From NCBI GenBank assembly GCA_028583405.1, contig CM053258.1:3843988-3907987 (forward strand): a stretch of 64,000 nucleotides of DNA, given 5' to 3'. How positions within the stretch are numbered: position 1 is the first letter of the stretch; each line of letters opens with the position of its first letter. This stretch comes from Pogonophryne albipinna. Lineage: Eukaryota; Chordata; Actinopteri; Perciformes; Artedidraconidae. The translations under genes and the position numbers were made by a program. Positions 41,301-47,300 of the stretch are shown piece after piece. The notes beneath the pieces were generated by a model. The model searched no databases. It had not been told where the DNA came from and saw only the letters and a program-made list of their open reading frames with translations.

Positions 41301-44300
41301 AAGCTGATCATACATTGTATTTTATATGAAGTTTAAATCATACAGTAAGTAAAGATGTCAAATAAATGTAGTGGAGTAAAAAGTACAATATCTGAGAGTA
41401 TGCATAGACCCGTATAAAAGTACCTCTAATCGCTCTGAGATACAGTTCTCCAGTGAAAAGCACTTACAGTATTACTTTCCATCCCTGGGAGTCCATACGT
41501 CATATCTTTAACATATTGGACGAACAGCAACATGCATGGGCCAATTTAAACATCAGCCAAAGTGAAGACAGAATGTCCACAATATGTTCTCAGTAAAACC
41601 TCAAAGTGAGCCAGCCATGGAAAATGGTTTTGAAGTCTGTTGCGACCTGGCTCAAAAGGCCACAACAAAAAGGAGACACAACATGTCAACGGGTAGGTAA
41701 AGGTGTTTATTTAGGACAAACAAATCAAATCAAAACCAGTAAAGTATGAGGTGTGGATGTCAGTGGTATCAGTAATGTAAATGCAGGGTGAGGATTGTAT
41801 GGACATGTATGTGTGTGAGAGTGTTGAAGTGCACAAAGTAAAGCAACTGAAGAAACTCCTAATATACTCAACAAAACCGGTGTGCCTGCAGGGAGAAGCA
41901 GAGAGAGCACAGAGAGGAGCAGAGAGGCGTTAAATAGCTGCAGGACACCAGACCCAGGTGCCCTGAGTTACTGCAATCACCAATCACCACAGCACAGACA
42001 GGACAGCCACCTCCTCTCTACTGATGAACCCACACGGGCATCACAGCCCCCCCCCTTAAGACGGGGCCCCAAAGGGATCCACGACAACCCAATATCCTCC
42101 TTCTTAACTCCAGCTTTTTTAATTTCCTTCTTAGGACTGGAGGAAGCTCCTCCTCCGCCGCTGTCCCACTCCTCCTTGGGTTGGCTGGCGTTGAGCCACA
42201 GCATGTAGGCGCTCATCGGCCTCTTGGGCGCGCCGACCTCCTTCGGCCTCCTCTTGTTCGGCCTCCTCTTGTTCGGCCTCCTGTTCTTCGCTTTGCAGGG
42301 TTTCCTCTCTTTCTTCTCCTTCTTCTTTGTCTCGATCTCAAAGTCAAAGGACCGTGCTGGACCACATTTTCCAGACTCCGAAACAGGTAGGTCAGTCGAC
42401 ATCCTACGGCTCTGCGCACGCGTAACAGGATAAACTGGCGACACACTTGGAAATTGCAAACCGCTCTCATCTGGCTCTACAGATGCCAACGGCCTGGAAA
42501 CCACCACAGGCGGTGGCACACCCGCCCACACAGCACGACCAGCTAGATCGTTGCCCAAAATCATCTGTACCCCATCAAGTGGCAACGCGGGACGCACGCC
42601 GATAGACACAACTCCCCGTACCAGCTCACAATCCAGCACTACTGTATGACGTTGCACAGGAATCAAGCCCATCTCCATGCCCCTCATCAGCACAAAATCC
42701 CCCGTTTCTGTCTCTGACGAAAAAGGCAACACTGACTCAACAATAAATGAGTATCTAGCTGCTGTGTCACGCAACACCTTAATCGGAACATACTTGTCAC
42801 TACCGACCATCGATACAACGGCTTCCGTTATGAACGGCTCAAAAACAGAACCCACCTCCAAGTCGGCACAAACCAGCTTCTTAACAGGCACCATGCCCGA
42901 TCTTACACCCTGCGGCTTTTTAACCAAAACGGCAGAACAACACATGGCTGGAGCATGTGATGAAGAACGAGGCTTCCCCTCAGGTTCCAGCAACGGACAC
43001 CGCTCCTTCCAATGACCCTCTTCTCGGCAATAATGACATTGGCCCACTCTGGCGCCCTCGGATCGCCCTGGACCTGCAAATCTACGGGAGGAGCCTGGTG
43101 AGAACTTTGCACCACCGCGGGAATAGCCACCATCTTCTCCACGTCTCCAATCACCCCTAGACCACTTCTCTGTAAAACTGTCCTTATGTGTCAACACAAA
43201 ATCATCTGCTAATTCAGCAGCTCTGAGCGCGGTGGAAGGTTTCTGCTCATTTACATAAGTGGCCACACGCTGAGGGATAACATCTTTAAATTGTTCCAAT
43301 ACAATGAGTTCACAAAGACCGTCAAAACTGGCAACCTTTGCTGCCGCACACCAGCGCTGAAAATGAGAAGTCAAATCACGGATAAACTCCACATGTGTCT
43401 GCTTATCTCCCTTGACCCAACTTCGGAACTTTTGACGATACGCTTCAGGAACAAGTTCGTATGATTTTAACACTGCTGATTTTACTCTGGCATAGTCCAA
43501 AGCATTTTCGCCACAAACAGCTGAATAGGCCTCCTGTGCTCGCCCAGTGAGTACACACTGAAGTAACAGCACTTTGTCCGAATCTGACCAGTTTCTTGCC
43601 TCTGCTATGCGTTCAAATAGAGTAAAAAAAATGTCAGGGTCACGCTCATTGAACTTTGGCACTAACCGCAAGTAAGAAATAATATCGCCACTACCTGATG
43701 CCGACCTATCACCACCATCCTCCCCTGGAGAAAACTTGCCCTCTCCAATCAGCCGTAATCTAGCATGTTCCACCTCACATTTAATCTTTTCCACCTCCAG
43801 CACCTTCTCCACCTCTAAACGCTTCTCTACCTCCTGCTGCTGACCCCTCATCTCCAACTGCAACTTCTCCTGCTCCAACCTCAACTTCTCCTGCTCCAAC
43901 CTCATCTCCAACTGCAACTTCTCCTGCTCCAACCTCAACTCCAACTTCTTCTGCTCCAACCTCAACTCCAACTGCAATCTCTCCTGCTCCAACCTCAACT
44001 CCAACTGCAACTTCTCCTGCTCCAACCTCAACTTCTCCTGTTCAAACTGCATGGCCAAAAGCTCCTTTTGCTGCTCGAACGTCAAACCAGCTGTCTGAAC
44101 CACTACCGGCACGAACCCTGCCGCACCAGACTCACTCTTCTGCAACACCCCCTGCTCAAACAAAGATGACACGATGACAGTTTTAATGTCATGTTTCCGC
44201 TTGCTCCCCACAACAGCAATGTCATAGTGCGCTGCTATTTCGACCAACTGCGCCTTCTGGCAATCATCTAAGAAAGACACTGAGGGCGCATCCACAAACG

Positions 44301-47300
44301 CTGACAAAGAAGTCATAATAACCAATCAGAAAGCAAAGTATTAAACTGCCAACACGCATGGTCATAAAATGAACCCAACAGAGAATTTCCCCCTAACTGC
44401 CGAAACAAAATCTTCCTAATCTCACCTAGTCTTCATGTGGCTTGCGGTGGGTAATTACGCACTGGAACCCGGCGGAGTTATGGAGCGACCTGCACGCAGG
44501 TAACACCAAGAACTCACGCGGACGTGCCCCTGAGACAGCTTTCCGAAAACAGCTGACACTAACCACGTCGCCACAACACTATGAAAACAAAAAAAAACAG
44601 ACGCAACCCAAGGGGAAACGCCACTTAAGCCTAGCGGGGAAAATCTCTTTTACAAAAGCGTAACAAACAGCAACATCTTACCTTCTGATTGGCACACAAA
44701 ACCTGACGACATGTCAAACACTACAGCTTCCTGAAACCCAAAAGACATGATGTGTCCCCCAAATAGCAGCGACAAGCCAGCACACAGCTGGACCACAACA
44801 ATGAATCAGCTGCTCAATGACACCATGTGCTCTGAGCACTACACAAACTTTTTAAACAAATAACCCGTTGGACGAGCCCCCATTTGTTGCGACCTGGCTC
44901 AAAAGGCCACAACAAAAAGGAGACACAACATGTCAACGGGTAGGTAAAGGTGTTTATTTAGGACAAACAAATCAAATCAAAACCAGTAAAGTATGAGGTG
45001 TGGATGTCAGTGGTATCAGTAATGTAAATGCAGGGTGAGGATTGTATGGACATGTATGTGTGTGAGAGTGTTGAAGTGCACAAAGTAAAGCAACTGAAGA
45101 GACTCCTAATATACTCAACAAAACCGGTGTGCCTGCAGGGAGAAGCAGAGAGAGCACAGAGAGGAGCAGAGAGGTGTTAAATAGCTGCAGGACACCAGAC
45201 CCAGGTGCCCTGAGTTACTGCAATCACCAATCACCACAGCACAGACAGGACAGCCACCTCCTCTCTACTGATGAACCCACAGTGAAAAGCACTTACAGTA
45301 TTACTTTCCATCCCGGGGAGTCCATACGTCATATCTTTAATATATTGGACGAACAGCAACATGCAGGGGCCAATTTAAACATCAGCCAAAGTGAAGACAG
45401 AATGTCCACAATATGTTCTCAGTAAAACACAGAAAACCTCAAAGTGAGCCAGCCATGGAAAATGGTTTTGAAGTCGTACAAATATTTAGGTCATCATTTA
45501 ACAAAACAATACATTTAGAAAAGATAAACAACAGAAATTAGTGCAGATCGACATCTGCTCTGCATTAGAGGTTCTGGTTCGGTCCAGCTGACAGCAGTGA
45601 TTGATAGTTAATGATACTCGATTTGGGGACTCAGGGATCAGTGAATCAACAAATCTCCAGAGATGGCAAAAGTACACACATCCTTTACTCAAGTAGAAGT
45701 ACAGATACTCGTGTTTATAAATACTCTGGTAAAAGTAGAAGTACTGACTAAAAGAAGTATGGGCTTTGAAATGTACTTCAGTAAAAAGTACCCATAACTA
45801 GCAGCTGTTTTAAAGAGTACCTGACCTCCCTTTATATTAATAGAACAATAATGTCATTGTTAGCTAATGAATGTTTCCATGCTGAACAACGGCAACATGA
45901 CAACGTTTCCATTGGTCCCTCTTCTTTAGAGAAGACCAGGAAGTGATGGATACACGGATCGTGTTCAAATCAATAGGCACGCAATGACTCTAAATAATAA
46001 TGATCACGCCACCAAACACACATTCAGACTAAAGGAACCAGCTGTTTGGGAAATGAGAGAAGTAGAAAGTACAGGTATTTGTGTTCAACATGTAAGAAGT
46101 AGAAAGTACAGGTATTTGTGTTCAACATGTAAGAAGTAAAAAGTACAGGTATTTGTGTTCAACATGTAAGAAGTAGAAAGTACAGGTATTTGTGTTCAAC
46201 ATGTAAGAAATAGAAAGTACAGGTATTTGTGTTCAACATGTAAGAAGTAAAAGTACAGGTATTTGGGTTCAACATGTAAGAAGTAGAAAGTACAGGTATT
46301 TGTGTTAAAAATGTAAGAAGTAGAAAGTACAGGTATTTGAGTTCAACATGTAAGAAGTAGAAAGTACAGGTATTTGTGTTCAACATGTAAGAAGTAGAAA
46401 GTACAGGTATTTGTGTTCAACATGTAAGAAGTAGAAAGTACAGGTATTTGTGTTCAACATGTAAGAAGTAAAAGTACAGGTATTTGGGTTCAACATGTAA
46501 GAAGTAGAAAGTACAGGTATTTGAGTTCAACATGTAAGAAGTAGAAAGTACAGGTATTTGTGTTCAACATGTAAGAAGTAGAAAGTACAGGTATTTGTGT
46601 TAAAAATGTAAGAAGTAGAAAGTACAGGTATTTGTGTTCAACATGTAAGAAGTAGAAAGTACAGGTATTTGAGTTCAACATGTAAGAAGTAGAAAGTACA
46701 GGTATTTGTGTTCAACATGTAAGAAGTAGAAAGTACAGGTATTTGAGTTCAACATGTAAGAAGTAGAAAGTACAGGTATTTGTGTTCAACATGTGAGAAG
46801 TAGAAAGTACAGGTATTTGTGTTCAACATGTAAGAAGTAGAAAGTACAGGTATTTGTGTTCAACATGTAAGAAGTAGAAAGTACAGGTATTTGTGTTCAA
46901 CATGTAAGAAGTAGAAAGTACAGGTATTTGTGTTCAACATGTAAGAAGTAGAAAGTACAGGTATTTGTGTTCAACATGTAAGAAGTAGAAAGTACAGGTA
47001 TTTGTGTTCAACATGTAAGAAGTAGAAAGTTCAGGTATTTGTGTTCAACATGTAAGAAGTAGAAAGTACAGGTATTTGTGTTCAACATGTAAGAAGTCAA
47101 AGTAAAAAGTCGTCAGAAAAACAAGTAGTGGAGTAAAGTACTGATACCAGAAAGATGTACTTAAGTACAGTAACAAAGTATTTGTACTCCACTACTTCCC
47201 ACCTCTGGGGATCAGTCAATCAACACATCTCTCACCCTCTCTTCTCTTTCTCCCCCCCTCCCCAGTCTCTCGTTCCCAGGTTTCCTCTCAGCACCAGCAG

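Follow-up and report, generated by a model that had tools for sequence, protein, structure and literature searches.

A Gag-protease frame that ends in SSRP1

We analysed a 64,000-nucleotide stretch of the genome of the Antarctic notothenioid Pogonophryne albipinna (assembly GCA_028583405.1, contig CM053258.1, positions 3,843,988 to 3,907,987; the window), which holds a long terminal repeat (LTR) retrotransposon on its minus strand. In place of pol, this element carries cDNA of the host gene ssrp1a, fused in frame to Gag and protease. The open frame spans 41977..44325 (782 codons from a TTG, or 779 from the first in-frame ATG at 44316), and its final codons extend into the 3' LTR. Aligned with its 408-nt 3' counterpart, the 5' LTR (44885..45281, 397 nt) proves to lack the first 11 nt. 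Directly behind it lies the primer binding site TGGGGGCTCGTCC..., which we take to be tRNA-Pro-like, at the start of a leader (44317..44884). Gag, a retropepsin (LRDTAA) and a linker follow (42355..44316, delimited by Pfam, fold and relatives), then the captured ssrp1a cDNA (42095..42356), which matches exons of ssrp1a in the same genome. The remainder of the element's 3' untranslated region (UTR; 42046..42094) includes the polypurine tract AAGGGGGGGGGC (42046-42057) and was placed by alignment with a pol-bearing copy, L052. The 408-nt 3' LTR (41638..42045) has the ends TGTGATG...CGCAACA, common to the other copies and to L052.

Within Gag we recognized a Leu/Glu-rich stretch, judged a coiled coil by eye alone and encoded by an array of short repeats, a SCAN-type capsid domain (Pfam PF02023, residues 293-382, E 1.1e-17) and a CCHC knuckle, which at 16 bits falls below the Pfam cut-off. 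Residues 471-782 were modelled from a 29-row alignment, and the predicted structure was searched with Foldseek. The protease core has a predicted local distance difference test score (pLDDT) mostly >90, and retroviral proteases lead the 42 matches with E of 0.001 or better (lowest 1.2e-4). Its active-site motif is DTAA, as are 21 of the 104 such motifs in the fetched proteins, that of the window frame included; 82 are DTGA and one is DSGA.

The captured stretch runs from the end of the SSRP1 middle domain (RSFDFEIETK) through a basic stretch with a 15-nt repeat expansion to the start of the HMG box (APKRPMSAYMLWLNAS), then KEEWD and a Ser/Lys-rich tail. An earlier note, made from the letters alone, had described the 782-codon frame as a fusion of Gag, retropepsin and SSRP1, and Pfam, the predicted fold and the match to ssrp1a of the same genome confirm it. 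The SSRP1 blocks on which that note relied also stand, as the tail does match SSRP1; its account is to be corrected in that the captured cDNA carries internal deletions and reaches its end within the element's 3' UTR.

The captured sequence derives from spliced ssrp1a mRNA

The tail of the frame matches human SSRP1 (6upk, E 4.8e-7) and fish SSRP1a. Host ssrp1a lies at C3:26388890-26399294, on another contig than the window, and was resolved exon by exon, with three stretches around the captured part read (L049-L051). Two blocks of the tail are identical to this gene, over 32 of 32 and 73 of 73 bases, the second being the HMG block, and the whole tail aligns at 232 of 240 bases, a figure that includes a few short pieces placed arbitrarily. 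This alignment upholds the resemblance to SSRP1 on which the earlier reading hung. The first 32 bases fall in one exon, and the chimera resumes in a later one. The word ACAAAG occurs in both exons on either side of this joint, as would be expected had the switch gone from one short repeat to another.

At all three exon junctions tested the introns (95, 967 and 75 bp) are absent. The last junction is the strongest: 18 bases lie ahead of it, and beyond it 30 of 33 aligned bases are identical. A few bases downstream of the first comes the 15-nt repeat expansion, and just 7 bases stand upstream of the second; both are still without intron sequence. The tail thus derives from spliced host ssrp1a mRNA, in keeping with the mRNA capture that the earlier note had proposed, and template switching during reverse transcription is the most likely route.

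The donor can be placed within the notothenioids. The motif RRPKEVG occurs in two of the 52 SSRP1 models compared, both from icefish, and also in host ssrp1a here; SSRP1 of Eleginops and Cottoperca differs, which assigns the donor to the Antarctic lineage after the Eleginops split. The onset of the Antarctic radiation is put at 10.7 million years (PMC10256766). SSRP1a of icefish and P. albipinna also has a Gly/Ala run behind the HMG box (L051; P0122), which the Eleginops model does not have.

ssrp1 cDNA occupies the place of pol

The earlier note had placed the SSRP1 junction where reverse transcriptase (RT) should begin. Relatives of the element do not support this placement, as in them the protease is followed by integrase: in P0003 the same linker leads into an integrase zinc-binding domain, and P0042 has the gene order Gag, integrase, RT. 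Alignment with L052 shows that ssrp1 cDNA stands in for pol, beginning in the protease-integrase linker and stopping in the 3' UTR some 50 nt short of the 3' LTR. The loss of pol itself, also claimed in the note, holds. We read 41 copies of the chimera (the window copy and 40 fetched ones, all in the better-scoring half of the matches described below), and in the 38 with both LTRs only 2,065-2,925 nt separate the LTRs, too short for pol; pol is absent from these copies, which have no room for env either.

The earlier note would have been refuted by full-length gypsy elements with pol and this same C-terminus. The linker of P0003 enters integrase instead, and the 3' end of the one pol-bearing copy of this genome that we read has no SSRP1. 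With P0003 as query (63 of 2,668 candidates scored), at least 38 matches in the P. albipinna genome reach the integrase zinc-binding domain, 12 of these 38 in frames of at least 1,400 codons. Matches of this search and of the tail search described below also fall in two unusually long frames, at G000:C188:51167-52972 (3,946 codons) and G000:C7:36635172-36635492 (2,356 codons).

The pol-bearing copy was read at its two ends (L052, L056). Its frame stops just before the 3' UTR and LTR, and the final codons presumably represent the end of RNase H, whose motif they resemble. In an alignment of 626 columns that takes in the end of the LTR, its leader and that of the window element are 97.1% identical, and this copy shares with the chimera the primer site, the polypurine tract and the LTR ends. 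The chimera has thus lost pol and has cis-signals in common with a pol-bearing relative. Mobilisation in trans is therefore the best explanation of its spread: RT, RNase H and integrase would be taken from such relatives.

Gmr1-like elements are defined by an integrase upstream of RT. This order, Gag-protease-integrase-RT, is present in relative P0042; the chimera has neither gene and, unlike Gmr1-like elements, has ssrp1 cDNA in place of pol. The SCAN-like capsid of the window element fits a Gmr1-like element, SCAN having been linked to Gmr1 (PMC4131045, PMC4592553).

A family of mostly young chimeras

We searched the genome (1,073,210,567 bases, 861 contigs) with a tail query of 112 residues. 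Of 428 candidates 150 gave scored matches, so that 150 is a lower bound; a stop falls inside the match in one of the 150. Many other elements carry the gag-ssrp1 joint, so the family that the earlier note had suspected exists. Among the 41 copies read, 38 have both LTRs (one LTR was not found in each of the other three), and 31 keep a frame of at least 700 amino acids. Both LTRs are complete in 34, of which 27 are flanked by an exact 5-bp target duplication, two by one with a mismatch, three by a 4-bp duplication and two by none. Most copies other than that of the window are therefore integrase-type insertions, and paired LTRs, primer site, polypurine tract and target duplication together mark an LTR retrotransposon, the duplication being absent from the window copy.

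The copies are mostly recent. The LTR pair of the window differs by 2 substitutions in 397 aligned nt, and the pairs of the 34 complete copies by 38 substitutions in 13,459 sites (0.28%), with 13 pairs identical and a maximum of 0.78%, which bears out the recent movement that the earlier note had read from the LTRs. Gene models of the same kind occur in Gymnodraco acuticeps (P0002, P0005) and P. albipinna (P0004), and P0001, on a 2.1-kb contig, has a shorter SSRP1 part. The viral contigs searched with the frame gave no relatives, only 19 pattern matches.

Codons 181-426 fall into two gag types among the 31 intact copies (18 and 13), while 29 of the 31 group together by protease and 27 by tail. 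The second gag type was probably acquired by recombination on one protease-tail module. Several tail matches in which the end of the HMG box is retained lie near one another at G000:C2:0.13-0.49 Mb and at G000:C14:6.8-7.1 Mb, through either local duplication or clustered insertion.

The window copy is flanked by an imperfect 186/195-bp direct repeat (41452-41637 and 45282-45475) where a 5-bp target duplication would be expected. End-joining of cDNA is a possible cause of this structure and of the shortened 5' LTR. Elsewhere in the window, a 37-bp repeat forms two arrays in opposite orientation (45918-47247 and 48483-49522), whose arms are up to 97-98% complementary across several hundred bases, and a 32-bp unit forms a short tandem array at 36026-36217.

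The SSRP1 tail is most likely a passenger

The earlier note had speculated that a partial HMG box might tether the element to chromatin. The HMG box of the window frame scores 17 bits, below the Pfam cut-off, and covers only profile positions 1-18 of 69, and in the SSRP1 part of the structure model pLDDT does not rise above about 55. All 41 copies read have a short form that lacks helix 2 and almost the whole of helix 3; the last part of the box is retained in P0002, P0005 and one copy of this genome, L055. As the fold is incomplete in every form read, we reject a chromatin tether by the HMG box as the note put it.

With resampling of codons, we estimated omega across the 31 intact copies, leaving aside the ten broken copies and codons 87-180, in statistics that ignore shared ancestry. 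Omega is 0.12 (0.03-0.36) for Gag codons 1-86, 0.26 (0.16-0.40) for Gag codons 181-426, 0.42 (0.17-1.02) for CCHC-protease and 0.46 (0.14-1.92) for the linker. For the tail it is 0.76 (0.31-3.04) against 0.25 for Gag-protease, and it exceeds the Gag-protease value in 99.2% of resamplings (0.8% contrary). Compared with the window copy, the others diverge by 1.8% in the tail, against 2.4% in Gag-protease, 1.7% for the leader and 1.5% for the LTR; the tail is thus not specially conserved. With the HMG box broken in every form and the tail less constrained than Gag-protease, the tail is most likely an unfolded, basic passenger.

The tail might instead serve the element as an unfolded basic extension that lets Gag-protease bind RNA or DNA or enter the nucleus. 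Every form read retains the basic stretch, which the in-frame 15-nt repeat has lengthened, and all five tail indels are multiples of three, compared with one of ten in Gag-protease, one of 17 in the leader and one of seven in the LTR. These in-frame indels are not proof of function, since a choice of copies by their tail protein is biased towards intact tails, and triplet-like repeats slip in threes. With the weaker constraint on the tail and its low-confidence model also against it, such a role is unlikely.

We are more sceptical still of the idea that the ssrp1 stretch pays, either as a polybasic tail that aids binding or nuclear entry or as a hostage. The hostage form is suggested by the near-identity of the 73-nt block to an essential FACT gene: small RNAs directed at the element would strike ssrp1 mRNA as well, a possible reason for the recent burst. 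In mouse cells, FACT itself is reported to repress endogenous retroviruses (PMC7834818). The hostage form is weakened by a tail that is no more conserved among copies than leader or LTR.

Origin and spread of the chimera

Very probably, a Gmr1-like gypsy element captured spliced ssrp1a mRNA, lost pol and spread with enzymes supplied in trans, its tail being a likely passenger. A Gmr1-like Ty3/gypsy element in Antarctic notothenioids would have picked up the host mRNA, most likely via template switching, and the cDNA would have displaced integrase, RT and RNase H while the Gag-protease frame, both LTRs, leader, primer site and polypurine tract remained. The chimera would produce its own Gag and protease and receive RT, RNase H and integrase from pol-bearing relatives with common cis-signals. 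In this way it would have reached the 150 or more copies of this genome, while frame-keeping deletions shortened the ssrp1 insert and recombination brought in a second gag type.

Several points weigh against this account. The LTR of the pol-bearing copy is 285 nt long against 408 nt in the chimera, with 247 of 282 aligned bases identical (87.6%), so this copy is a relative and perhaps not the actual helper; it is also known from two ends, with the RT and integrase parts outside them. Mobilisation and template switch are deduced from sequence. Seven of the 34 complete copies have no exact 5-bp duplication, the window copy itself is not an integrase-type insertion, and all 41 copies rank in the better-scoring half of the matches. 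The omega interval of the tail is wide, and its five in-frame indels speak for some constraint.

Two other histories fare worse. Genomic ssrp1a DNA might have been captured and its introns removed later by splicing of the element's RNA before reverse transcription, which is conceivable in that such RNA goes through the nucleus; given that the tail holds pieces of five exons spanning about 4.6 kb of ssrp1a and that none of the 41 tails read contains intron sequence, we regard this as very improbable. That the chimera was domesticated and is kept as a gene for the fish is scarcely credible, since its long frames, gene models in two species and purifying selection on Gag (expected of active elements too) occur in what copy number, LTRs, target duplications and very small LTR divergence mark as a mobile family, although one domesticated copy among the many is conceivable. 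The capture of spliced mRNA by an element that then spread with enzymes of its relatives remains our preferred explanation.

Relation to known captures and significance

Capture of host mRNA by LTR elements is known mostly from tumour viruses, some endogenous retroviruses (ERVs) and plant elements. In the gag-onc fusions of acute transforming retroviruses, host mRNA is joined to gag, pol is lost and a helper is needed, and the chimera resembles them in fusion, pol loss and presumed helper dependence. Those viruses are infectious and were isolated from tumours, whereas the chimera is a germline family, apparently without env, that carries a fragment of a FACT subunit.

Crocodilian ERVs carry captured KIT-ligand and nectin3 mRNA (PMC4299795) and share with the chimera a vertebrate LTR element, spliced host mRNA and several copies, one case predating a species split. 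They differ in having taken up a cytokine gene without domain loss, or a gene that replaces env, and in inserts under purifying selection; the chimera is gypsy-type, has lost all of pol, and carries an eroded, less constrained insert fused to Gag-protease in at least 150 copies. Maize Bs1 (PMC13317346) is likewise an LTR element with host-gene fragments in a hybrid frame, but a plant element with pieces of three genes. Recent repeats of P. albipinna are reported to be mainly Gypsy and hAT (PMC10716251); a paper on Trematomus retrotransposons mentions neither Gmr1 nor chimeras (PMC5941688), and SSRP1 serves merely as a tree marker in PMC10078794. We found no earlier report of a Gag-SSRP1 element among the open-access papers searched, and we consider the chimera a new and striking variant of an already known process.

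A single vertebrate genome here holds the donor gene, candidate helpers and the chimera itself, in at least 150 copies that are mostly young, on two gag backgrounds and with helix 3 of the HMG box either present or missing. The successive events of capture, shrinkage, recombination and parasitic spread lie open to direct reading, and in two species such chimeras are annotated as uncharacterised or hypothetical host proteins. They raise the questions of whether a captured fragment of a chromatin gene bears on the success of an element, and whether an abundance of ssrp1-like transcripts interferes with the host's FACT.

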